Source: Bacteroidales bacterium (GTDB taxonomy: Bacteria; Bacteroidota; Bacteroidia; Bacteroidales; PXBB01). From it: a DNA stretch of 64,000 bases. Shown here one piece after another: positions 25,750-55,472 of this stretch. The translations under genes and the position numbers were made by a program. The stretch spans positions 1 through 64,000 of the forward strand of contig PXBB01000002.1 in the NCBI GenBank assembly GCA_003565735.1. The letters are read 5' to 3'. Position 1 is the stretch's first letter, and every line of letters starts with the position of its first letter. The notes beneath the pieces were generated by a model. The model did no database searches. It saw only the letters and a list, made by a program, of their open reading frames with translations, and was not told the origin of the DNA.

Positions 25750-26138
25750 TCTTTCTTTTTTAATGTTTTGAGCATCAGAATATGAATGCTGACACCAACA
25801 GCAATTACATATAGTAATATGCGAATATAAACATTATCAATGAAAACAAAGGCAGATATACTTATAAAAAACCAAAGCAAAATAAGGTTTATTATTTTTA
25901 CATTTTTGGGGATGCCTTTTTTTTCGAGATAGCTTTTAATATAAAAGCCTAATATTTTATGGTGGATCAGGTAATTATAAAAACGCAAGGAGCTGCGCAA
26001 GTATAAGTAAGATGCCAATAAAAGAAAAGGTGTTGTGGGTATTAATGGTAAAACTATGCCCAGCACGCCCAAAACAACAAATAATGTCCCCAGTACTAAA
26101 AACAATGTCCTTTTGAAACGACTTTTAACTGGAACCAA
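25746..26138 (-). CDS. DUF454 (YbaN family) small membrane protein
   Basis: 'LFLVLGTLFVVLGVLGIVLPLIPTTPFLLLASYLYLRSSLRFYNYLIHHKILGFYIKSYLEKKGIP' is typical. Start appears to be TTG. Confidence 0.87.
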   Translation of the reverse strand: MVPVKSRFKRTLFLVLGTLFVVLGVLGIVLPLIPTTPFLLLASYLYLRSSLRFYNYLIHHKILGFYIKSYLEKKGIPKNVKIINLILLWFFISISAFVFIDNVYIRILLYVIAVGVSIHILMLKTLKKKE

Positions 26139-26162
26139 AACCGGAAATTTTCAATATTTCAA

Positions 26163-26411
26163 CTATAAACTTGCGGCCTCTACTGCTTTTATCTCCGGAA
26201 TAGCTTTTTTAACAGCACTTTCTACACCGGACTTCAAAGTCATCATACTCATCGGGCAACCTTTGCAGGCACCCAACAACTCAACATAAACGATATTGTC
26301 ATCCGACAATTCTACAAAACGAATATTGCCTCCATCAGCCTCTAAGTATGGTCTTATTTGATCTATTACGCTCTCTACTTTTTTTATCAAATCTGCTTTC
26401 TCTGTTGACAT
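26163..26411 (-). CDS. NifU-like Fe-S scaffold protein
   Basis: 'VIDQIRPYLEADGGNIRFVELSDDNIVYVELLGACKGCPMSMMTLKSGVESAVKKAIPEI' with CxxC. Confidence 0.95.
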   Translation of the reverse strand: MSTEKADLIKKVESVIDQIRPYLEADGGNIRFVELSDDNIVYVELLGACKGCPMSMMTLKSGVESAVKKAIPEIKAVEAASL

Positions 26412-26547
26412 AATAAAAAATTTAAAATGTTTTATATTTTTTTAGATTTATTTAAAATTAGTACAAAAGTAGTATTTTTATTTTAAATATTTTCAAAATT
26501 CAAAAAAATGGTAACTTTACTTTACAAAACAAAAAAAATAAAAAACC

Positions 26548-27444
26548 ATGATGAAAAAGTACATATTATCAGCAAGCTTCACCTTTATATTTTTTTTATC
26601 CTTTAGTCAAACAAATATTTATCATCCTTTCCCCGAAAAAAATGCTGTATGGAACTACAATTACACACGTTGGGGTTTTGATGGATTAATAAGTGAATTC
26701 TATTCAATAATTATTGCAGGGGACACATTGATAGACCACGTCACATACAAGAAGCTGCATATCCCATTTGTCCTATCAATTACAAATGATTCCAGCACAA
26801 ATGTTAGCCCTGGTTACAAGGGTGCATTCAGACAAGACACAGTCAATAAAAAAGTCTATTTTGTAGATCCTTCAAGCAACACGGAACGTGTGTTATACGA
26901 TTTTAATTTAGAAATTGGTGATACCATTCATAGCCCACACGGGTACGACATCGTCCTCGACATTGATTCTATATTAATGGGAGATACTTACCGAAAAAGG
27001 TGGATAGTTAATCAGGCATATCATATATCAATAATAGAAGGACTTGGCTCAACCTACGGGCTTATTGTCAATTATCCCGGAGATTATGTCGGTTTTCCTG
27101 ATTATTCACTCATTTGTTTTTCAAAAAATAATACAACACTGTATCCGAGCGGAAGCCATGATTGTGAAATCATTACCCTATGTGAAACCTATAAAAAAGA
27201 TGCTCATTGGCTGAGTATCTACCCAAACCCTACCGAAGGTGTTGTATATGTGTCAGCCAATGCAAAAGGCATTGATGCCACACAAATTAACATCCGCTCA
27301 TTATCAGGGCATTTACTATATTCTGAAAGTGTTAATACAAAAAAAACCGCAATTGACATATCTCATTTAAATGACAGCATCTATTTATTTGAAATAATCT
27401 CTAATGAAAAGACTATAATTGAGAAAATCATCTTAAAAAAATGA
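26548..27444 (+). CDS. Secreted protein with T9SS type A C-terminal sorting domain
   Basis: Signal peptide; C-terminus 'LSIYPNPTEGVVYVSANAKGIDATQINIRSLSGHLLYSESVNTKKTAIDISHLNDSIYLFEIISNEKTIIEKIILKK'. Confidence 0.88.
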   Translation: MMKKYILSASFTFIFFLSFSQTNIYHPFPEKNAVWNYNYTRWGFDGLISEFYSIIIAGDTLIDHVTYKKLHIPFVLSITNDSSTNVSPGYKGAFRQDTVNKKVYFVDPSSNTERVLYDFNLEIGDTIHSPHGYDIVLDIDSILMGDTYRKRWIVNQAYHISIIEGLGSTYGLIVNYPGDYVGFPDYSLICFSKNNTTLYPSGSHDCEIITLCETYKKDAHWLSIYPNPTEGVVYVSANAKGIDATQINIRSLSGHLLYSESVNTKKTAIDISHLNDSIYLFEIISNEKTIIEKIILKK

Positions 27445-27658
27445 TAAAACTGACCATAGTATCATAAATAATCAGTCTGTTGGAATTTATTTTTGTGGAC
27501 AATTTATGAAATAATAAACCCGACCTTGGTTGCCTGTTTTTTTTCATCCTTTCTAAGATCAATTGATTAAAAATTTTTACAAAAAAAATGTTAAATTACT
27601 TGCTATTAGTATTTTAAAGTATTATATTTGATTTTATGTATAATTAAAAGAATAAATT

Positions 27659-28213
27659 ATGAACTGTCCTGTTTGCCACGAACCTGATTTAGATAAGAGC
27701 ACTAAATCATGTCCTAAATGTAGTTCGGATTTAGAATTACTTACCCAAATAAAAATCACCAGAAAGCTTTTAATACGTAAAAATAACACCATAGCCTTAT
27801 TGTCCATACTTCTGGTAATTGCAATACTGTCTGCTTTCTACCTTTCAATAAAAGCAAAAAGCACATTATCCGGTGAAAAAGAAAAAGTCAGCCGTTCACT
27901 GACAAAAGAAGAAAAAGTGTCTAAAAATCAACAGTACACTTTAGATATGGAAAACCAACAAAAGGCAGCGGTATCTGACACTATAAAATCTTTTGTAGAT
28001 GCTACAAAAAAATCAGAGAGCCACGATAATAATGAAAAAAATCAAAATGCTATTGAACATATCGTTAAAAAAAATGACAATCTCTGGCGTCTTGCGATAA
28101 CCTATTATCAGGATGGGTACAAGTATCAAAAAATTGCTCATGACAACAATATTGAGAACCCCGAATTACTTAAAATAGGTCAAACAATCATAATTTATGA
28201 AGAACACCCCTAA
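27659..28213 (+). CDS. Zinc ribbon - transmembrane - LysM protein
   Basis: 'MNCPVCHEPDLDKSTKSCPKCSSDLELL' double CxxC; hydrophobic 'NTIALLSILLVIAILSAFYLSI'; C-terminal LysM 'IEHIVKKNDNLWRLAITYYQDGYKYQKIAHDNNIENPELLKIGQTIII'. Confidence 0.82.
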   Translation: MNCPVCHEPDLDKSTKSCPKCSSDLELLTQIKITRKLLIRKNNTIALLSILLVIAILSAFYLSIKAKSTLSGEKEKVSRSLTKEEKVSKNQQYTLDMENQQKAAVSDTIKSFVDATKKSESHDNNEKNQNAIEHIVKKNDNLWRLAITYYQDGYKYQKIAHDNNIENPELLKIGQTIIIYEEHP

Positions 28214-28223
28214 ATTTCAACAT

Positions 28224-28730
28224 ATGAATATCAAAACCCATTTCCAAAATGTGACTCAAAAAGTTGAAAGCATACTTAATGATGCTTTTGAACTTAAGAA
28301 AAAGGTAAAAGCACTTGAAGATTCGTTGGCTAAAGCGCTTGAGAACACAAGTAACTTAAACAATGAAATAAAAATTTTAAATGGCAAAAACACCCTTCTA
28401 AAAAAAGAAAAAGAAGAAAAGGATGAAGAAATAAAAAAACTTAAAATGTCACATACCAAACTTGAAGAGGTGTGCAAAGAACAAGAAAGCCATCACAGTG
28501 CGCTGATGAAGTTGCATCTAAAAACAGAAAAGGCTCTGAAAGAAAAAATACAAAAGTGCTTTGCTGTTGAAAAAGAGTTTAAACGTCAGGTAAAACAAAT
28601 CAAAGAATTGAATTCAAACAATAAAGACCTCGAAAAAAAGCTTATAACTGCATTAGAAAGGATAGAAAAACTGGAGGAAGAAAACGACATTCTGATGGCT
28701 ATTGAAACCAATAAAGCTACTACAGTATAA
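28224..28730 (+). CDS. Coiled-coil protein
   Basis: Heptad-rich Lys/Glu/Leu sequence throughout; likely start MNIKTHFQN, 11 bp after the preceding stop codon. Confidence 0.7.
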   Translation: MNIKTHFQNVTQKVESILNDAFELKKKVKALEDSLAKALENTSNLNNEIKILNGKNTLLKKEKEEKDEEIKKLKMSHTKLEEVCKEQESHHSALMKLHLKTEKALKEKIQKCFAVEKEFKRQVKQIKELNSNNKDLEKKLITALERIEKLEEENDILMAIETNKATTV

Positions 28731-28940
28731 TTTTTAGACACCCCCTCCCACTGAAAAATTCCGCAAACATTTTTGACATGAAAACCGCGGATGCTGTACA
28801 ATTTTTTTTGAATCAGCTTACCCATACCCATCTAAATGAGACTGTCAAAACTGCCGTTTGCTGAAAACATTTTGAAGGCAGTGAGACATCTTCTTATAAC
28901 AAACAGTTAACCAGTAATACGCTGTTAAAAATATTAGCGG

Positions 28941-28975
28941 TTTGTATAATCTCAAAATAAAAAATCGTATTTTTG
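28941..28975 (+). promoter_or_regulatory. Bacteroidetes-type primary sigma promoter for the TPR gene/secG
   Basis: TTTG (28941-28944) - 23 nt - TATTTTTG (28968-28975), 16 nt before ATG 28992. Confidence 0.6.
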
Positions 28976-28991
28976 CAAAAAAAAAAGCAGC

Positions 28992-29756
28992 ATGTCACAA
29001 TTCCTGTTTAAAAACCATTTAAATATTCTTGACAACACATCAGAGGTGACTTTAGAAGCATTAAAAAAATACCTTAACGATTACCCATATTGCCAGTCGG
29101 CCCATAAGCAGTTATTATTGTCCCTGGTTCAAAAAAACCAAAAGACTGAAACAAAGCAACTGGCATCAGCTGCTGCATACAGTCCCTGCAGAGCAACATT
29201 ATACCGGCAGGTTCAGGAACTTATAAAACAACACAGTGCTTCGCAACAAGAAAAAAACGATGACAAATTTTCTAAAGATACCACCGGCACTGAACAGACA
29301 ACAGCTGAAAATATTATAAATAATGAAGCGTTAAATATATCGGAGGCAGAAGATAGTAGCATAAAGTCAGACCATAGGACAGAAGCATCAGAAAAAGACG
29401 CCGCATTAAGGGCTATCGTAGAAAAACGCTTAAAAGAAATTAACAAAGAGCAAGAAGCTGAAAATAAGCCGGCAACTGACGGCAAATTGGATAAGAAAAA
29501 AATTGTTGAAAATTTTTTAGAGAATGAGCCACGCATAACGCCCAAGAAAGACATGGTAAATGATGCTGATTTATCTCATCAAAGTGTTATTGATAAACTT
29601 GATTATGTTTCAGAAACACTTGCTCAAATATACGAACAGCAGGGCAATTTTGATAAAGCTGTTAAGACTTATGAAAAATTATCTTTGAAATATCCCGAAA
29701 AAAGTGCTTACTTTGCACGCGAAATTGAAAAAATTAAAAAACAAACAAAAAAATAA
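28992..29756 (+). CDS. TPR-like hypothetical protein upstream of secG
   Basis: 'SVIDKLDYVSETLAQIYEQQGNFDKAVKTYEKLSLKYPEKSAYFAREIEKIK' TPR-like C-terminus; low-complexity charged middle. Confidence 0.75.
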   Translation: MSQFLFKNHLNILDNTSEVTLEALKKYLNDYPYCQSAHKQLLLSLVQKNQKTETKQLASAAAYSPCRATLYRQVQELIKQHSASQQEKNDDKFSKDTTGTEQTTAENIINNEALNISEAEDSSIKSDHRTEASEKDAALRAIVEKRLKEINKEQEAENKPATDGKLDKKKIVENFLENEPRITPKKDMVNDADLSHQSVIDKLDYVSETLAQIYEQQGNFDKAVKTYEKLSLKYPEKSAYFAREIEKIKKQTKK

Positions 29757-29762
29757 ATTAAA

Positions 29763-30149
29763 ATGGGTGCTTATATTTTTATTTCAGTATTGATTTTTAT
29801 TGCATGCATACTCCTCATAATAGTTGTATTAGTGCAAGATTCTAAAGGTGGTGGGTTAGCTTCCAATTTTTCAGCCTCCAATCAGGTAATGGGTGTTCGT
29901 AAAACAGCCGACTTTCTCGAAAAAACAACATGGACACTTGCCATAGCTCTGGTTGGTTTAAGCTTGTTGTCTATATTTGTTATACCCCGAACTCAAACCG
30001 TAACGACTTACGATAGTCAGCTGATGGAATATATAGAGCGAACACCAGCTGTCGATTTTCAACAACCCCCGGGGGCTGGTACACAAACTCCTGCCGAGCA
30101 ACAACAACAGCAACAGCAGCCTGTAGGGCAACAACCCATAGAAGATTAA
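29763..30149 (+). CDS. secG: Preprotein translocase subunit SecG
   Basis: 'LIFIACILLIIVVLVQDSKGGGLASNFSASNQVMGVRKTADFLEKTTW'; Gln-rich tail. Confidence 0.93.
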   Translation: MGAYIFISVLIFIACILLIIVVLVQDSKGGGLASNFSASNQVMGVRKTADFLEKTTWTLAIALVGLSLLSIFVIPRTQTVTTYDSQLMEYIERTPAVDFQQPPGAGTQTPAEQQQQQQQPVGQQPIED

Positions 30150-30222
30150 ACACAGATGTTGTCATTCATTGCACATCTGACTGTAAAATATTAGAATTCT
30201 TTCAAAGACATCTTATTTCGTA

Positions 30223-30259
30223 AAAGCCAACAATGACCTGTATTGTTGGCTTTTTTTTT
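30223..30259 (+). terminator. Rho-independent terminator after secG
   Basis: AAGCCAACAAT-GACCTGT-ATTGTTGGCTT followed by a T-run. Confidence 0.85.
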
Positions 30260-30260
30260 G

Positions 30261-30302
30261 TATGACATACGCCCAAAACTTTAATAATGTCATAATGTCA
30301 TA
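30261..30302 (+). promoter_or_regulatory. ATGTCATA motif cluster (one inverted, two tandem direct copies) upstream of groES
   Basis: TATGACAT at 30261-30268; ATGTCATA at 30287-30294 and 30295-30302. Confidence 0.35.
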
Positions 30303-30448
30303 ACATACTGCCATTTTTATTTTTTATAAGCTTATAACTGACAAAAATGACCTAAAACGAGCTAAAAATTGAAATGGCATAAGATTCGCTAATGAGGTGC
30401 TCGATTATGAACATAAAATGTTGAACCCATTAAAATAAATTAAAAACT

Positions 30449-30727
30449 ATGACAAAATTAAGCATTAAACCGTTAGCAGACAGAGTATTAGTAGAACCTG
30501 CTACTGCCGAAGAAAAAACAGCAGGCGGTATCATTATCCCCGATACAGCCAAGGAAAAACCACAAAAAGGTACAGTGGTCGCCGTGGGCAGCGGCAAAAA
30601 AGATGAGCCCTTAACCGTTAAAGAAGGCGATGCTGTTCTTTATGGAAAATATGCCGGTACGGAAATAACACTCGACGGTAAAGAATATTTAATGATGCGT
30701 GAATCGGATATTTACGCTATTGTTTAA
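30449..30727 (+). CDS. groES: Co-chaperonin GroES
   Basis: '[45 protein letters not shown]'. Confidence 0.98.
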
Positions 30728-30741
30728 AAAAAAATAATTAA

Positions 30742-32508
<1,767 letters not shown>

Positions 32509-44829: not shown

Positions 44830-46185
<1,356 letters not shown>

Positions 46186-46499: not shown

Positions 46500-49400
46500 A
46501 TGAGTGACGAAAATAACATAGAAGGGGTTTTACATAGCCTGGATGCAGATAATATTCAAAATCTTGATGATTTAATCAAGTCGCCGGATAAACTCAAAAA
46601 GATTCTTGCCGAGAAAAAAGAAAGGCTCAAGGAGCTAGAAACAATAAATCAAACAACCCGCATATTAAAAGAATCTAAAGACATTGATGTCATGTTGCGC
46701 CAAATATGCGAAATTCTGCCACGCGGCTGGCAGTATCCACGGCATACTGTAGCACGCATCAAATATGGTCGTAACATATTTACCAGCATAGGCTTTGAAG
46801 AAACAGAATGGCGGCTGATGAAAACCTTTGAAACGGTTGACAACAAGCAGGGTCTTATTGAAATTTTTTACACCAAGGACTTTGCTTTAGCTGATGAAGG
46901 GCCTTTTCTTAAAGAAGAAAGGGAACTCATTAACAATTTGGCAAATATTATTTCCGGCTACCTCAACACTCTGATAGGTAAAAATTATTTAAAAACCCTC
47001 GGCGTAGGCAGTAAGGATAAAAAAGAAAAAACATCTGAAGCACATATGAGCATGCAGCTGCTTCAGAAATTTCTTAAGAAACATAATTCCGACAGGGATA
47101 TTTACCACGACTTGATGCCTTTTAAGGTTCGGGAGATTCTGCTTGTAGCTAACCTTTATGATGCATATAGTATAGAGAAAGAAGGACGCTTTTTCGAACA
47201 GGTAACCGGGGAATACTACCAGCTCAACTTATCGTCTGCACCACGCATTACCGGTGTATCGACTCCTGAAGAAGCACTCGAAAAAATGCAGTTTAAGCAT
47301 TATGATTTGATAATAGTTATGATGGGCGTTGATAAAAACACACCCATTGAACTCAGCCAAATTATTAAACAAATATATCCGACTACACCAATTTTTTTGC
47401 TACTCAACAACAACAGTGACATATCCTTATTTGAAGACGGACACAAAAAAATATCCTATATTGACAAAGTGTTTGTCTGGAACGGCGACTCAAAGGTTTT
47501 TTTAGCTATGGTAAAATACCTTGAGGATATGCAAAATGTTGAAAATGATGTTGAAATCGGTCTTGTTAGAGTCATTTTGCTTGTTGAAGACTCAGCGCGC
47601 TATTACTCACGTTATTTACCCATCTTGTACGCTATAGTTATAGAACAAACACAAAGGCTTATTGAAGAGGTTAATATAAGGGATGAATTGTATAAACTTT
47701 TACGCATGCGTGTACGTCCTAAAATATTATTAACATCCACCTACGAGGAAACTGTTTACCTGTTTAATAAATTTAAAGACAACATGCTTTGTGTCATTTC
47801 TGACGTTAAGTTTGAAAGAGGTGGCAAACTTAACGACAGGGCTGGTTTATGTTTGATAAATTATGTCAAAAAACAATTAAATGACTTACCAACCCTTTTG
47901 CAATCATCCGATCCTGAAAATTCGATGGAAGCCTATAAGCTTAAATCTACTTTTGTAAATAAAAACTCAGACACTCTCAAGGAAGACCTAAAAAGCTTTA
48001 TAAGCTATTATTTAGGTTTTGGAAATTTTGTGTACAAGGACGAAGATGGTCGCAGAGAAATAGGCACCGCAACCAATATGCTGGAATTTGAAAAGCTTTT
48101 AAAAATAATACCTGATGAGTCTTTGGCGTATCATGCACGCCGCAATCATTTTTCGAACTGGATTATGGCCAGAGGCGAAATTTTTCTGGCAAAAAAAATA
48201 AAACCTATGAAAGTGTCTGATTTTGATAGCATCAAAGATGTCAGAAAGTATCTTCTGGACGCTATCGAATCATACCGCAATGAAAAAAATAAAGGGAAAG
48301 TGGTCAATTTTGAGGAAACGGCCTTGATGGACGAAACAACCATAGTGAGCTTAGCTTCCGGCGCACTAGGCGGCAAAGGACGCGGCTTGTCTTTTATCAG
48401 CACTTTGATTCATAACTTTAATTTTTCTGAAATTCTGCCGAATATTAAAATCCGGACACCACGCACTTCAATTATCGGCACTGATGAATTTGAAGCCTTT
48501 ATGGAAAGCAATAACCTGAGAGAAAAGGTGTATTACGAAAAAGATTATCAAGTTATCAAAGAGCTTTTTGCAGAAGGAAAGCTTACAATATCACTCGAAC
48601 GTAAGCTGCGAAGGTATGTTAAAATTATTAAGAAACCTCTAGCTGTGAGGTCGTCAAGTTTATTTGAAGACTCATTAATGCAACCTTTTGCGGGCATTTT
48701 TGACACTTATCTGTTGCCTAACAATGACGATGATATCAACACACGTTTTAATCAGCTTTCAACAGCTGTAAAACTCGTTTTTGCATCCATTTTTTCACCT
48801 ACTGCCCGCGGCTATTTTCAAGCTGTAAATTATAAAATTGAAGAAGAAAAAATGGCTGTTATAATACAAGAGGTTGTGGGCAATCAGCATAATGATAGCT
48901 TTTACCCTCACATCAGTGGTGTTGCTCAGTCGTACAATTTTTATCCGTTTTCTCATATGAAACCCGAAGAGGGTTACGCTGTTCTGGCAGTGGGCTTAGG
49001 TAAGTATGTCGTAGAGGGCGAAAAAACATACCGTTTTTCACCTAAATACCCCGATCTCGAAATAAATGCGCCTAAAGATCAGCTAAAAAACTCACAAGTG
49101 CACTTTTATGCTGTTGACATGAGCCGTAAAAAGATTAATTTGCTTGACGGTGAAGATGCCGGCTTGATTACACACGACATTTATAATGCAGAACAACATG
49201 GCACCATAAAACATTGCGTTTCTACATACGACGCCGATAACGAAAGAATAGTTCCGGGTCTTTCGCAGCCTGGACCCCGTATCATCAACTTTGCAAATAT
49301 TCTGAAATACGAATACATACCGTTGGCCAAAACGCTTCAAATCATTCTGAATGTCGTTAAAGAGGCTATGGGATCGCCTGTAGAAATAGAATTTGCAGTG

Positions 49401-50015
49401 GACCTCAATTTCGACAAAGACTACAGAGCTTCATTCTATCTGCTTCAAATCAAGCCCCTTATTGGCAAAGCTAAAGATTTTGAAATAAAACCTGAAAAGC
49501 TGGATAAAGAAAAAATATTGTTGTACACCGAAAAAGGCATGGGCAATGGAGCTATTAAAAACGTGTCTGACATCATATATGTCGAGCCTGATGCTTTTGA
49601 CAAAACAAAAACAACTGAAATGGCAGCCGAAATAGAAAAAATCAATAAGCACATGATTGAAGAAGGGAAAAAATATGTTTTAATAGGTCCCGGACGCTGG
49701 GGTACACGCGATCGCTTTATTGGTATTCCGGTTAACTGGACACACATATCTAATGCTAAAGTAATTGTTGAAACCAGCATGGAGGATTATCCATTAGATG
49801 CTTCGCTAGGCTCTCATTTTTTCCATAATGTCACCTCTATGAATGTAGGCTACCTCTCAGTAATACACACTTCTAAAAACGATTACATCGAATGGGAAAA
49901 AATAAAAAAGTTAAATGGAAAAAAAGTGGGAAAATATTTTAAACATATTACTTTTGATGAACCTTTAGAAATACTTATGGATGGCAAAAAAAGAATTGCT
50001 GTTATTATGTTATAA
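46500..50015 (+). CDS. Multidomain protein: GAF-like sensor, degenerate receiver, receiver with long insertion, PPDK_N/PEP-synthase-type ATP-grasp, novel C-terminal domain
   Basis: 'DEGPFLKEERELINNLANIISGYL' sensor signature; 'VILLVEDS...CVISDVKF...LLQSSD...FVNKNS' receiver residues; 'GGKGRGLSFI' and 'AVRSSSLFEDSLMQPFAGIFDTYLLPN' ATP-grasp; C-terminal 'LIGPGRWGTRDRFIGIPVNW...LGSHFFHN'. Confidence 0.85.
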   Translation: MSDENNIEGVLHSLDADNIQNLDDLIKSPDKLKKILAEKKERLKELETINQTTRILKESKDIDVMLRQICEILPRGWQYPRHTVARIKYGRNIFTSIGFEETEWRLMKTFETVDNKQGLIEIFYTKDFALADEGPFLKEERELINNLANIISGYLNTLIGKNYLKTLGVGSKDKKEKTSEAHMSMQLLQKFLKKHNSDRDIYHDLMPFKVREILLVANLYDAYSIEKEGRFFEQVTGEYYQLNLSSAPRITGVSTPEEALEKMQFKHYDLIIVMMGVDKNTPIELSQIIKQIYPTTPIFLLLNNNSDISLFEDGHKKISYIDKVFVWNGDSKVFLAMVKYLEDMQNVENDVEIGLVRVILLVEDSARYYSRYLPILYAIVIEQTQRLIEEVNIRDELYKLLRMRVRPKILLTSTYEETVYLFNKFKDNMLCVISDVKFERGGKLNDRAGLCLINYVKKQLNDLPTLLQSSDPENSMEAYKLKSTFVNKNSDTLKEDLKSFISYYLGFGNFVYKDEDGRREIGTATNMLEFEKLLKIIPDESLAYHARRNHFSNWIMARGEIFLAKKIKPMKVSDFDSIKDVRKYLLDAIESYRNEKNKGKVVNFEETALMDETTIVSLASGALGGKGRGLSFISTLIHNFNFSEILPNIKIRTPRTSIIGTDEFEAFMESNNLREKVYYEKDYQVIKELFAEGKLTISLERKLRRYVKIIKKPLAVRSSSLFEDSLMQPFAGIFDTYLLPNNDDDINTRFNQLSTAVKLVFASIFSPTARGYFQAVNYKIEEEKMAVIIQEVVGNQHNDSFYPHISGVAQSYNFYPFSHMKPEEGYAVLAVGLGKYVVEGEKTYRFSPKYPDLEINAPKDQLKNSQVHFYAVDMSRKKINLLDGEDAGLITHDIYNAEQHGTIKHCVSTYDADNERIVPGLSQPGPRIINFANILKYEYIPLAKTLQIILNVVKEAMGSPVEIEFAVDLNFDKDYRASFYLLQIKPLIGKAKDFEIKPEKLDKEKILLYTEKGMGNGAIKNVSDIIYVEPDAFDKTKTTEMAAEIEKINKHMIEEGKKYVLIGPGRWGTRDRFIGIPVNWTHISNAKVIVETSMEDYPLDASLGSHFFHNVTSMNVGYLSVIHTSKNDYIEWEKIKKLNGKKVGKYFKHITFDEPLEILMDGKKRIAVIML

Positions 50016-50085
50016 TCCGGGCATATTAGTAAAAATGATTTCAGGTAAACAGCTTTTAAATATAATTATACTTTAATAAATATCA

Positions 50086-53076
50086 ATGAAATACATAGAA
50101 AACATCAACGAATTTCAATTTACTGAAACGGCATTTAAGAAATTAATGCAAAAGCGTATAAGAAATATTCTTATTATTTGCAGTAAGTACGATTATTTTA
50201 TGCTTGAGGAAGACGGGCGTATTGATGAGCAGATTTTTAACGAATACGTTTCACTCAATTTACGTTATCCACCTACATTTATACAAGCCTCAAACTGGGA
50301 AGAAGCCTCAAAGCTGCTCGAAAATTCGCAGATAGACCTTATAATCAACATGCTAAGCACGGGCAACATTGATCCTTTTGATTTGTCACGAAAAATTAAA
50401 AACTACTATCCCAACAAACCTATTGTGGTTCTCACTCCATTTTCAAGAGAAGTTCTTATGCGCCTTCACCGCGAGGATTTAAGCGCCATTGATTATGTGT
50501 TCTCCTGGCTGGGCAATGCGGATATTTTGTTGGCTATCATAAAACTTATTGAGGATAAAATGAACGCCCCCAATGATATTGAAGAAATTGGTGTTCAGAG
50601 CATTATACTGGTTGAAGACAATATCAGGTTTTACTCAAGCTACTTGCCAATCATATACAAAATTCTTTTCCGTCAGTCTAAAGCGCTTATGACAGAAGGT
50701 CTCAACGAGCACCAAAAAATGCTGCGCATGCGTGGCAGGCCCAAAATATTGCTGGCTACCAATTATGAAATGGCTACTGCTTTTTACGAAAAATACAAAC
50801 ACAATTTACTGGGTGTCATTTCTGATATTAGTTACAAGCGCGAAGGCTCCCTTGATTCGAAAGCAGGCATCAGTTTGTGCGAAAAAATTAAAAATGAAGA
50901 CGACCGTATTACCTTCCTCCTCCAATCCTCTGACAGTTCTTTTGAGGAAGTTGCACTCAAAATGAAAGTAGGGTTTATTCATAAACACTCTAAAACGCTG
51001 TTGCAGGATTTAAAGCAATTTATAATAGAATACTTTTCTTTTGGGGATTTTGTTTTTCGTACCCCCGACACACTTCAAGAAATTACCAGGGCAGCCGACT
51101 TACATTCACTACAAAATAAAATTTTCACTATCCCTGATGAATCTTTAGACTATCACATTAAGCGTAATGATTTTTCGAAATGGCTTACAGCTCGTGCTTT
51201 ATTCCCATTAGCAGAGCTCTTCAAGCCGGTCTCTCACGAAGCATTTCAAAACTTACAGGAAGTACGTGAATATTTGTTCGATGCCATAGAACACTTTAGA
51301 ATTACCAAAGGCCGTGGTGTTATTGGCAAATTTGAAAAATCAAAATTTAATAAATACATCCTTTTTTCTCGTATAGGCGAAGGCTCTATTGGAGGCAAAG
51401 CAAGAGGACTTGCTTTCATGAACAGCCTCATTAAAGATAATAAACTGTACAATAAATACGAAAACACGATTATTACCATCCCTAAAACTGTTGTGCTGAG
51501 TACGGATGTGTTTGATGAGTTTATGGAAGCCAACAATCTGTATAGCATAGCCCTATCTGACTTAAGCGATGAAGAAATATTACAGCACTTTATTAATGCG
51601 CGTTTACCATTTCGCATTCATGAAGATTTGTTATCCTATTTGTCCGTTGTCAAAAACCCTATAGCTGTACGCTCCTCAAGCCTCCTTGAAGACTCACACT
51701 ATCAACCATTTGCCGGTGTCTATTCAACCTATATGATACCAAAGCTAAACGACGACATCATACGTATGGTCGAAATGCTATCACAAGCAATTAAAGCCGT
51801 ATATGCTTCGGTATTTTACAAGTCGAGCAAATCTTATATGGCTGCAACACATAACTTAATAGATGAGGAAAAAATGTCTATTGTGTTACAAGAAGTTTGT
51901 GGTAATCAATATGGCAACATATTTTATCCAACAATTTCTGGTGTTGCACGTTCAGTAAACTTTTATCCTATTGGGCCCGAGTCGCCCGAAGATGGCATAG
52001 CCAATATTGCCTATGGTTTAGGAAAAGTTATTGTAGAAGGTGGTGTGTGTATGCGCTTTAGCCCTAAATATCCCCGAAATGTTTTGCAACTGTCATCCCC
52101 CGAATATGCCCTGCGCGATACACAAAAAAAATTTTTGGCGCTCAACCTTGACCCTGATAATTTTAAACCATCGAAAGAGGAAGATATCAACTTGATTGAA
52201 TCGCGTATCAAAGAAGCTGAAAAACATGCTTCCTTCAAGTATGTGGCATCAACCTACGACTATCATTCAAACATGGTGCGCGACGGCATAGCAGAAGGGG
52301 GCAAAAAAATTGTAACATTCTCTAACATTTTAAACCACAACCTGATGCCCATGGCAGAAATTATTGACAACTTTCTGCAAATCAGCAAAAAAGAAATGAA
52401 TAATCATGTTGAAATAGAGTTTGCTGTTAACTTAGACACACCAAAAGGTAAACCATACATTTTTAACTTTTTGCAAATCAGGCCTATAGTTCAAAACTTT
52501 GAAATTGCTAACATTAACATTGATAAAATCAATCAAAATGAAACAATAGTATTTTCAGAAGCGGCATTAGGCAATGGTGTTATTGAGGGCTTAAGGGATA
52601 TTGTCTATATAAAACCGGAAACATTTAACCCTTCTAATACAATTGAGATGGCAGATGCTGTTAACAGTATTAATGAATCTTTTCTTGATAAAAACAGCAA
52701 CTACATCCTTATTGGGCCAGGGCGTTGGGGTTCGAGCGACCCTTGGTTAGGAATACCTGTTAAATGGGCACAAATTTCTGCCGCCAGAGTTATTATTGAA
52801 GCCGGTCTCGAAAATTACCGTATTGACCCCAGCCAAGGCACGCATTTTTTTCAAAACCTAACCTCTTTCCGTGTGGGTTATTTTACTATTAACCCATTCA
52901 ACAACGACGGCTTTTATGACCTTGATTATCTTAAGGGCTTAGAAACTGTCAGCGAAAATAAATATCTTCGACATGTACGCACACCGAAAGCGGTTTCTGT
53001 CAGAATTGACGGTAAAAATAATATTGGTGTTATTTACAAACCGGAATACTCAAAAAAAAGCAAATGCAAGAATTAA
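50086..53076 (+). CDS. Tandem paralogue of 46500-50015 lacking the N-terminal sensor: receiver-like domains plus PPDK_N ATP-grasp
   Basis: 'IILVEDNIRFYSSYLPIIYKI...GVISDISYKREG...LLQSSDSS...FIHKHSKTL'; 'GGKARGLAFM', 'AVRSSSLLEDSHYQPFAGVYSTYMIPK'; 'LIGPGRWGSSDPWLGIPVKW...QGTHFFQN'. Confidence 0.85.
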   Translation: MKYIENINEFQFTETAFKKLMQKRIRNILIICSKYDYFMLEEDGRIDEQIFNEYVSLNLRYPPTFIQASNWEEASKLLENSQIDLIINMLSTGNIDPFDLSRKIKNYYPNKPIVVLTPFSREVLMRLHREDLSAIDYVFSWLGNADILLAIIKLIEDKMNAPNDIEEIGVQSIILVEDNIRFYSSYLPIIYKILFRQSKALMTEGLNEHQKMLRMRGRPKILLATNYEMATAFYEKYKHNLLGVISDISYKREGSLDSKAGISLCEKIKNEDDRITFLLQSSDSSFEEVALKMKVGFIHKHSKTLLQDLKQFIIEYFSFGDFVFRTPDTLQEITRAADLHSLQNKIFTIPDESLDYHIKRNDFSKWLTARALFPLAELFKPVSHEAFQNLQEVREYLFDAIEHFRITKGRGVIGKFEKSKFNKYILFSRIGEGSIGGKARGLAFMNSLIKDNKLYNKYENTIITIPKTVVLSTDVFDEFMEANNLYSIALSDLSDEEILQHFINARLPFRIHEDLLSYLSVVKNPIAVRSSSLLEDSHYQPFAGVYSTYMIPKLNDDIIRMVEMLSQAIKAVYASVFYKSSKSYMAATHNLIDEEKMSIVLQEVCGNQYGNIFYPTISGVARSVNFYPIGPESPEDGIANIAYGLGKVIVEGGVCMRFSPKYPRNVLQLSSPEYALRDTQKKFLALNLDPDNFKPSKEEDINLIESRIKEAEKHASFKYVASTYDYHSNMVRDGIAEGGKKIVTFSNILNHNLMPMAEIIDNFLQISKKEMNNHVEIEFAVNLDTPKGKPYIFNFLQIRPIVQNFEIANINIDKINQNETIVFSEAALGNGVIEGLRDIVYIKPETFNPSNTIEMADAVNSINESFLDKNSNYILIGPGRWGSSDPWLGIPVKWAQISAARVIIEAGLENYRIDPSQGTHFFQNLTSFRVGYFTINPFNNDGFYDLDYLKGLETVSENKYLRHVRTPKAVSVRIDGKNNIGVIYKPEYSKKSKCKN

Positions 53077-54224
53077 TGCTTAATTGCTGAAAGAAGTGTT
53101 TGAGCTAATGCAGCTATTTCAACTCTGGTATTAAATGCATGCAAACAAATTCTGATACGTTCTTTTCCCTGCGATACAGTAGGGCTGAGAATGGGTTTTA
53201 CGTATAAATTTTCTGCCTCTAACAAAGCCGCTGTTTTTTTAACGGCATCATTACCCGGAACTATAAAACATTGTATAGGACTGTTACTTTCTATATAGTT
53301 TTTGGGCAGCAAACAATGATTTTCAGGACTGATTTTTTGCTTGAAATAAGCAATATTTTCATGTAGTCTGTTCGTATAATCACTCTTTTCATTAAGCAGA
53401 TCGTATGCAGCTTTAACAAACATGTGAGCATGAACAGGCAAAGCTGTGGTATAAATAAATGAACGGGCAAAGTTGATAAGAAAAGTTCGTAAGGCTTTAC
53501 TCCCTAACACTATTGCTCCATGACATCCCAGAGCTTTACCAAAAGTATGAATTCGTGCAAATATATCATTTTCAAGTTCATAGTGGGCAACCAAGCCCCT
53601 ACCCTTAAGGCCAAATACTCCCGTTGCATGAGCTTCATCAACAACTAACAGGGCATTTTGTCTTTTGCACAACTTAATCAGCTCGGTTAGTGGGGCCGTA
53701 TCGCCATCCATTGAATATACAGACTCAACAACTACGTAAACCTGTCCTTTAGCCACCGGCCACCTGTTCATAAGGTGTTCCAGGCTGTTGTGTTCAAAAG
53801 CATAGCTTTGCGCAAATCCAATTCTGATCCCATCACGAATTGATGCATGCACATGTGCATCATAGAAAACAGTATCGCCTCTTTGAGGCACAGAAGAGAA
53901 GAATCCAATATTCGCATCATAGCCGGAATTAAAAATCAGACCTGCTTCCGATCCATGAAAATCAGCAATATAATTTTCAAGCGACTCTGTAAAAGCACTA
54001 TTTCCGGTTATAAGTCTCGAACCGGTTGATCCTGCATACCTGCCCTCTTGATATTGCGAGCAATAGTACTGGTATTTTTCATACAACTCAGACGATTGTG
54101 CAAAGCCTAAATAATCATTAGAACAAAAATCTATGGCATCGGGTTTTATTGAAAGTTTTCTGAGTGCATTTGCAGCTTTACGCATTTCTATTTTGCGTGC
54201 GAGATTTTCTGAAAAGAAAGACAT
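53073..54224 (-). CDS. bioF: 8-amino-7-oxononanoate synthase (or closely related alpha-oxoamine synthase)
   Basis: 'DFCSNDYLGFAQSSEL...GSTGSRLITGNS...LVVDEAHATGVFGLKGRGLVAHY...IHTFGKALGCHGAIVLGSK'; next to bioB. Confidence 0.85.
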   Translation of the reverse strand: MSFFSENLARKIEMRKAANALRKLSIKPDAIDFCSNDYLGFAQSSELYEKYQYYCSQYQEGRYAGSTGSRLITGNSAFTESLENYIADFHGSEAGLIFNSGYDANIGFFSSVPQRGDTVFYDAHVHASIRDGIRIGFAQSYAFEHNSLEHLMNRWPVAKGQVYVVVESVYSMDGDTAPLTELIKLCKRQNALLVVDEAHATGVFGLKGRGLVAHYELENDIFARIHTFGKALGCHGAIVLGSKALRTFLINFARSFIYTTALPVHAHMFVKAAYDLLNEKSDYTNRLHENIAYFKQKISPENHCLLPKNYIESNSPIQCFIVPGNDAVKKTAALLEAENLYVKPILSPTVSQGKERIRICLHAFNTRVEIAALAQTLLSAIKH

Positions 54225-54233
54225 ATATTGTTG

Positions 54234-55184
54234 TTAAATAAGCTTGACTCCTAATTTTTCCAACATCTTCAGGTCTTCATCTGGGCTTGTGTTAGAGGTG
54301 GTCAGTAGTTTTTCACCAATAAAAATGGCATTGACGCCTGCAAGAAAACACAAAGCCTGTTCAGCTTCACCCATCTCCCGACGGCCTGCTGCAAGGCTGA
54401 TATTTGTTTTAGGCATTATTATGCGCGTGGTTGCTACCATACGTACCATCTCCATAGCGTCTATAGGTTTTAAGTCGGCGAAAGGCGTACCTTCAACAGG
54501 AACCAGAATATTAAGTGGCACAGTGAATGGTTGTTTTTTCAAAGTAGCCAGTGCATACAACATAGACACTCTGTCTTCAGCACTTTCGCCCATGCCTATT
54601 ATACCTCCTGAACAAATATTAACACCGCTATTAGACAGCTTGTTAAGTGTTTCTATGCGCTCTTTAAAAGTTCTGGATGTTATTACTTTTGGGTAAAAAG
54701 ATTCTGATGTATCAATATTGTGATTGTAAGCTTTGATACCACTTTTATACAAAGCATCGGCTTGTTTTTCATTAACTTTACCCATTGTCAAACACACATC
54801 CATTCCCAAGTCTTTAACGGTCTTAATCATTTCCAGGACGCTTTCAAAAGCTTTCCCTGAGGGCAACTCTTTGTAGGATGCACTTAAACAAACCCTGCTC
54901 AACCCGCTATTCTTGGCTTTTAAAGCTAACTGACGTACCTCTTCCTTTTTTAGCATTTTTGGGGAATCCAAGCCGGTATTGTAAAGTGACGATTGCGCAC
55001 AGTAGGCACAGTTTTCTACGCAGTTACCGGTCTTTACAGATATAAGCCTGCTGGCTTTAACCTCATATGAGTTGTGGTTTTGCCGATGCACTTGAGAAGC
55101 CCTAAACACCAACTCCAGTAAAGGCGTATGGTATATCTCCCTAACTTTTTTTAAGCTTAAAGGTAATGTGGCATTAAATACCAT
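54234..55184 (-). CDS. bioB: Biotin synthase
   Basis: Radical SAM motif 'KTGNCVENCAYCAQSS'; 'GICSGGIIGMGES'-like segment ('NICSGGIIGMGESAEDR'). Start set at MVFNATLPLSLKK (55184). Confidence 0.96.
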   Translation of the reverse strand: MVFNATLPLSLKKVREIYHTPLLELVFRASQVHRQNHNSYEVKASRLISVKTGNCVENCAYCAQSSLYNTGLDSPKMLKKEEVRQLALKAKNSGLSRVCLSASYKELPSGKAFESVLEMIKTVKDLGMDVCLTMGKVNEKQADALYKSGIKAYNHNIDTSESFYPKVITSRTFKERIETLNKLSNSGVNICSGGIIGMGESAEDRVSMLYALATLKKQPFTVPLNILVPVEGTPFADLKPIDAMEMVRMVATTRIIMPKTNISLAAGRREMGEAEQALCFLAGVNAIFIGEKLLTTSNTSPDEDLKMLEKLGVKLI

Positions 55185-55201
55185 GTTTTTTATTTTTTTT
55201 G

Positions 55202-55209
55202 CAAAATTA
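55202..55209 (-). promoter_or_regulatory. -7 box (TAATTTTG) of bioB
   Basis: CAAAATTA on + strand, inside the first codons of the longer ORF call (55214). Confidence 0.5.
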
Positions 55210-55472
55210 CTCATTTTTTTTCAGTAGTACCCGACTAATTTTGTAATACGCTTCGTTTGATACAGGGGCTACCTATATTATGCCCCTATGTACCGGAGGC
55301 AGGCCTTGGGGGAACGCTGTCATTGCTGTTTTATTGAGTTTTTTTTAAAAAGTCCCACCCCTCAAGAATGGCAGGCGTTTGTGGGTAGCAATTTACCGGA
55401 CAGGTAGGTAATGTTCTGCAGAATTCAGGTTTAACAATTGTCTGCCTCAAAGAAGTTGATACTGCCACTTAT

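Follow-up and report, generated by a model that had tools for sequence, protein, structure and literature searches.

Paired receiver and ATP-grasp proteins encoded beside glutamate dehydrogenase genes in Bacteroidota as candidate regulators of the enzyme

The 64,000-nucleotide window analysed here (contig PXBB01000002.1 of a Bacteroidales bacterium, positions 1 to 64,000) contains two adjacent forward-strand genes, P1 and P2, which lie 70 bp apart; the first-pass annotation had their coordinates, strand and gap right. Its description of the two as paralogous over most of their length was borne out by alignment (39% identity across 970 aa). It had overlooked the DUF5752-like stretch (PF19027) between receiver and ATP-grasp domain in both proteins, the N-terminal sensor-like domain of P1, the C-terminal domain with its invariant histidine, and the adjoining gdhA gene, which is divergent from P1. 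The features of the locus are as follows.

44830..46182, - strand: gdhA, NADP-specific glutamate dehydrogenase (GDH), 450 aa (PF00208 1.2e-89; PF02812 6.9e-51; NCBIfam NF006929 above cut-off)
46500..50015, + strand: P1 (1171 aa), sensor-like domain, rec1, rec2, DUF5752-like, PPDK_N and C-terminal domain
46602..47039, + strand: P1 N-terminal sensor-like domain, aa 35-180 (BLAST 36% identity, 7e-20; alignment)
47112..47549, + strand: P1 rec1, degenerate receiver, approximate boundaries (sub-threshold Response_reg; alignment with P2)
47562..48014, + strand: P1 rec2, receiver with the E/D, D, S, K set, approximate boundaries (P1/P2 and family alignments)
48135..48305, + strand: P1 DUF5752-like linker (PF19027)
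48363..49499, + strand: P1 PPDK_N ATP-grasp domain (PF01326 1.5e-41)
49500..50012, + strand: P1 C-terminal domain with invariant H1106, codon 49815-49817 (alignments)
50086..53076, + strand: P2 (996 aa), rec1, rec2, DUF5752-like, PPDK_N and C-terminal domain
50158..50580, + strand: P2 rec1, degenerate receiver (Response_reg 3.7e-5, sub-threshold; strand/helix order in the AlphaFold model)
50593..51039, + strand: P2 rec2, with long helix 1 and E177, D178, D247, S281, K300 (alignment, AlphaFold model)
51073..51300, + strand: P2 DUF5752-like linker (PF19027)
51385..52527, + strand: P2 PPDK_N ATP-grasp domain with K438, R529, T548, E778, Q797, R799 (PF01326 1.6e-40; Foldseek RPH 1.5e-11)
52528..53055, + strand: P2 C-terminal domain, GPGRWGS..D..LG...E...S.GTHFF, with H920, codon 52843-52845 (alignments; AlphaFold)

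A search for a terminator-like site between P1 and P2 found none. The 22 gaps between directly adjacent copies in other Bacteroidales range from -29 to +112 bp; because such copies are close together or overlapping, P1 and P2 probably form a single operon. Behind P2, on the opposite strand, lie biotin-synthesis-like genes (53073-55214, -; a KAPA synthase-type aminotransferase and a biotin synthase-like protein, identified by eye), for which no connection to the pair was seen. The AlphaFold model of P2 (pLDDT 85.8, pTM 0.79) contains two receiver-like domains of alternating strands and helices, and its Foldseek matches are response regulators and the ATP-grasp domains of PPDK and RPH.

In Pfam, Response_reg scores for both proteins remained below threshold (19-24 bits against a cut-off of 30.2). 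The expected Asp acceptor and Lys are both absent from rec1 in the alignment, in keeping with its original reading as a degenerate receiver. The second receiver, in which acidic, Asp, Ser and Lys positions had been noted, has the complete residue set (E177/D178, D247, S281 and K300 in P2), and this set is kept in nearly all of the 154 full-length relatives: E177, D247 and K300 occur in 154/154, S281 in 153/154 and D178 in 146/154, the others having N. Ahead of the receivers, the sensor-like domain of P1 (~145 aa) matched nothing in Pfam or the PDB, and its assignment as a known GAF domain was dropped for want of support from either. Domains of the P1 type, with about 20-50% identity, also head other proteins in the family's neighbourhoods, namely nucleotidyltransferase proteins, the distant relatives that have the ATP-grasp domain, and regulators of the CRP type that bear a cyclic-nucleotide-binding domain; two such regulators (cNMP_binding plus HTH_Crp) are encoded at L047:7918-9039(-) and L073:10361-11482(-). 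Three P1 homologues (L088:3685-7923(+), L098:3713-7909(+) and L053:4041-7928(+)) have extra N-terminal input domains: the sensor-like domain is present two or three times, or a PAS domain has been added. Moreover, pairs of a PAS-histidine kinase and a response regulator lie between family copies at several relatives' loci.

Both proteins carry a complete PPDK_N domain, as had been proposed, with Pfam matches covering positions 3-322 of the 328 in the profile. Within it, K438, R529, E778 and Q797 (P2 numbering) are conserved across full-length relatives, core-only ones (~580 aa, lacking receivers) and distant ones (~28% identity), and T548 is near-invariant among full-length members. K438, in the GGK motif, was equated with RPH Lys22 by motif position, and R529 and T548 with RPH Arg117 and Thr136 by alignment, using a 12-residue numbering offset between RPH entries. 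In RPH, the Lys22Ala mutant loses all activity, and Arg117Ala and Thr136Val block the second half-reaction. RPH and HpeHI share with the family the ATP-grasp fold, as the best Foldseek matches, and the ATP-site Lys, Arg and Thr; they differ in possessing a swivel and a small-molecule domain, whereas P1 and P2 have the ATP-grasp domain alone of these, together with receivers. The second ATP-site arginine, R799, is replaced by Lys in 25 of the 154 full-length members, apparently the P1 clade, and in P1 itself; because of this substitution, the chemistry of P1 may differ from that of P2.

The region beyond PPDK_N, about 175 aa in length, forms a C-terminal domain with the signature L-GPGRWGS-D--LG---E---S-GTHFF and 22 invariant columns in the family alignment, and AlphaFold modelled that of P2 with a pLDDT of 90.2 and a pTM of 0.89. 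Foldseek returned no PDB structure at E<=1e-3 and no viral model matching this domain, and searches against PDB sequence profiles gave no match. The first-pass annotation had reported that the phosphohistidine swivel (PF00391, GG-T-[SC]-H-A) and the PEP/pyruvate TIM barrel (PF02896) were missing, and neither was found in P1 or P2 by Pfam, profile-profile or Foldseek searches. A similar order of secondary structure, with a histidine at the start of a helix, had prompted a view of the C-terminal domain as a cryptic swivel; this was abandoned when hhalign detected no relationship to an initial 7 or a later set of 34 swivels (probability 0.2%, E=0.33) while the positive control worked. A single histidine, H920 in P2 and H1106 in P1, is invariant among 178 relatives, and it is the only one common to the full-length, core-only and distant groups. 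Because the well-studied PPDK_N enzymes operate via phosphohistidine, H920 is the best candidate phosphoacceptor; that it is indeed phosphorylated seems to us plausible, though we advance this only tentatively.

These results bear on whether the pair could be diverged PEP synthase or PPDK paralogues that still produce PEP. The two enzymes have PPDK_N in common with P1 and P2, and weak matches to PEP-synthase models were obtained, but these NCBIfam models reach ~52 bits at most, with cut-offs set at about 600-1060, PF00391 and PF02896 are absent, and a true PPDK with PF00391 is encoded elsewhere in the same genome (C138). We therefore dropped this assignment as extremely improbable. Separate from the C138 PPDK, a 1371-aa open frame (G000:C48, about 26000-32000; L136) combines PPDK_N with a PF00391 swivel near its C-terminus.

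Among known regulators, VadK (Rv1127c) of Mycobacterium tuberculosis is a truncated PPDK that autophosphorylates on a histidine and regulates central-metabolism enzymes, acting on the methylcitrate cycle; its catalytic histidine was located in a phosphotransfer domain by overlay on PPDK structures (PMC13400623). VadK and P1/P2 alike have a PPDK-type ATP-grasp domain and no PEP/pyruvate barrel, whereas VadK has a phosphotransfer domain and no receivers, and P1/P2 have receivers, an unrelated-looking C-terminal domain and a link to GDH. Since P1 and P2, when compared with such truncated PPDKs, have the ATP-grasp domain and lack the barrel but contain no detectable swivel, we do not class them as members of the PEPS, PPDK, RPH or VadK groups. 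PPDK-derived regulatory kinases are thus already known, but receivers, a C-terminal domain of this kind and a GDH link were found in none of them. Response regulators with enzymatic output likewise place receivers ahead of an enzyme-like domain, and none with a PPDK_N-type output is described in the literature or profile libraries searched.

The architecture of P1 and P2 is not a product of chance, because relatives of P2, mostly full length, occur in 132 of the 149 genomes sampled from the window's order, and the family is present in 119 of its 133 sampled genera. A survey of 297 Bacteroidota genomes placed the family in 34 genera of the phylum. Human gut and mouth bacteria (Parabacteroides, Phocaeicola, Prevotella) also carry it, and the one annotated copy among them is labelled merely 'PEP/pyruvate-binding domain-containing protein'; the literature searched contained no study of the family. 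In the core-region tree, P1 falls into a clade of its own (100/99), next to P2-type, other-class, core-only and distant clades; as judged from this separation, P1 and P2 are ancient paralogues rather than products of a recent duplication. An anti-phage defence role was also considered and dropped, as neither protein matched a PADLOC family.

The gene neighbourhoods suggest the target that was missing from the initial description, namely GDH and the 2-oxoglutarate node. Of 48 full-length relatives in other Bacteroidota genomes, 39 have gdh as a direct neighbour, in 37 cases on the same strand. The gdh gene also lies within two genes of 9/10 core-only and 11/16 distant members, and members of all five deep clades adjoin it. 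As an internal control, gdh was present in 46/58 loci, against 11/58 for the next commonest neighbour family. A typical arrangement in other Bacteroidota classes is gdh-FAM-(histidine kinase-response regulator)-gdh-FAM-gdh, where FAM denotes a family member. Among the 18 P1-clade loci with upstream sequence, 10 have a divergent gdh immediately before P1 and 7 have korB there; korAB encode 2-oxoacid:ferredoxin oxidoreductase, whose substrate may be 2-oxoglutarate. Among 40 Bacteroidales loci flanked by 3 kb or more on both sides, 23 have none of the linked genes within a distance of two genes. Given two clear gdh genes among the few thousand genes of the window's genome, we estimate the likelihood of adjacency by chance at a fraction of a percent. 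Neighbourhood is not proof of interaction, and we consider a functional link between the family and GDH very likely.

Several further partners recur at these loci. Some Bacteroidales have a NuoE-NuoF-formate-dehydrogenase-like operon between P1 and P2 (L066, L075, L090, L101, L106), and the window's own genome has an operon of this type next to its second gdh (L195, C145). Its identification as an [FeFe]-hydrogenase was dropped, since profiles show a molybdopterin, formate-dehydrogenase/NuoG-like protein, which is fused to a glutamate-synthase-small-subunit-like part. Wider gdh clusters comprise gdh, a 580-aa core and a 1060-aa core that ends in an NTP_transf_2 nucleotidyltransferase domain, often followed by a calcineurin-like phosphoesterase. 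Distant relatives with the same ATP-grasp and C-terminal domains (L126:6374-9562(+), L127-L129, L132, L135, L184-L189) lie mostly in gdh clusters and, where scanned or aligned, have an added C-terminal NTP_transf_2/Pol-beta nucleotidyltransferase domain. At L045:6210-7929(+) and L047:3319-4918(+), the P1 and P2 homologues are separated by genes for a small nucleotidyltransferase with a sensor domain and for a calcineurin-like metallophosphoesterase, and the same metallophosphoesterase adjoins eight distant-relative genes. No copy of these accessory partners was found in the window's genome, which is 84% complete.

Membership of gdh operons would also be consistent with a pathway role, in which P1 and P2 are metabolic enzymes, ATP-grasp ligases or kinases whose substrate is a small metabolite close to the GDH reaction, be it glutamate, 2-oxoglutarate or a compound derived from either, and whose receivers provide ordinary control of activity. 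Small molecules are the substrates of most PPDK_N enzymes (PEPS, PPDK, RPH, HpeHI), and the dense conservation of the C-terminal domain resembles that of an active site. We nevertheless regard a metabolic enzyme as unlikely: receivers or sensor-like domains are always attached, the core-only clade excepted, and the protein stays constant while the neighbouring enzymes change (gdh, korAB, NuoEF/formate-dehydrogenase-like), which better suits a regulator.

We lean, with modest confidence, towards P1 and P2 being signal-controlled, ATP-dependent regulators of GDH and the 2-oxoglutarate node, built as ATP-grasp phosphotransferases under receiver control. The inputs would be the sensor-like domain, in P1 only, and a phosphorylatable rec2, probably served by histidine kinases; rec1 would contribute to structure or dimerisation. 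The PPDK-type ATP-grasp domain, coupled to the new C-terminal domain, would form the output module: the state of the receivers would open or close the ATP-grasp domain, and ATP would be spent on phosphorylating the invariant C-terminal histidine, as in PPDK, RPH and VadK, a transfer proposed by analogy because no swivel can be recognised in the C-terminal domain. The phosphorylated C-terminal domain would then modify or bind GDH and alter its activity, and the 2-oxoacid:ferredoxin oxidoreductase would probably be a second target; we infer both this direction of control and GDH as the physical partner. Since its genes adjoin that of glutamate dehydrogenase across Bacteroidota, the family probably controls nitrogen uptake in this phylum. 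The original proposal of a receiver-controlled ATP-grasp enzyme with a target other than pyruvate fits all the data, but its 'dikinase' label goes too far, as there is no recognisable swivel and the evidence for phosphoryl transfer consists of the intact ATP-grasp site and one invariant histidine.

Alternatively, the ATP-grasp domain might bind ATP or ADP without phosphotransfer, so that P1 and P2 would sense energy state and control GDH or an operon by protein-protein binding. The lack of a recognised phosphocarrier domain, the Lys of P1 at the R799 position and the proposal that VadK acts via binding and ATP sensing are all compatible with such a sensor; however, the Lys and Arg required for RPH turnover are invariant in the family and a histidine invariant in every clade suggests chemistry, and we judge it quite unlikely. 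Regarding the form that regulation by phosphotransfer might take, glutamine synthetase is controlled by adenylylation, and because the nucleotidyltransferase and phosphoesterase found beside GDH recall this control, the family could form the core of a counterpart system of reversible covalent modification, in which the receiver-controlled ATP-grasp/His domain would modify GDH and, in other lineages, the phosphoesterase and a nucleotidyltransferase fused to the same type of ATP-grasp core would add reverse and forward steps. This extension seems to us somewhat unlikely.

New here are GDH as a target, both the sensor-like and the C-terminal domain, and the wide distribution of the family. GDH is a main ammonia-assimilation route in these bacteria, and our findings supply a concrete candidate for its regulator together with a candidate catalytic residue. 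If true, the proposed function would introduce receiver control among PPDK-derived kinases and extend the PPDK_N superfamily by a new C-terminal domain. The title of Baggio and Morrison (1996), as cited in PMC4539542, speaks of 'trans-acting gene(s) downstream of gdhA' in B. thetaiotaomicron and, as worded there, points to an unidentified gene beside gdhA that alters GDH activity. In the literature searched, we found no later explanation of this activity switching. PMC4539542 also reports GDH in three two-dimensional-gel spots, and takes spots that share a mass but differ in isoelectric point to suggest isoforms. Going by that title, the P1/P2 family is a candidate for the 1996 'trans-acting gene(s)', which we treat as a strong lead rather than as fact. 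At two Bacteroidaceae-like loci (L150, L152), the gene immediately downstream of the first gdh, and convergent with it, belongs to the family.
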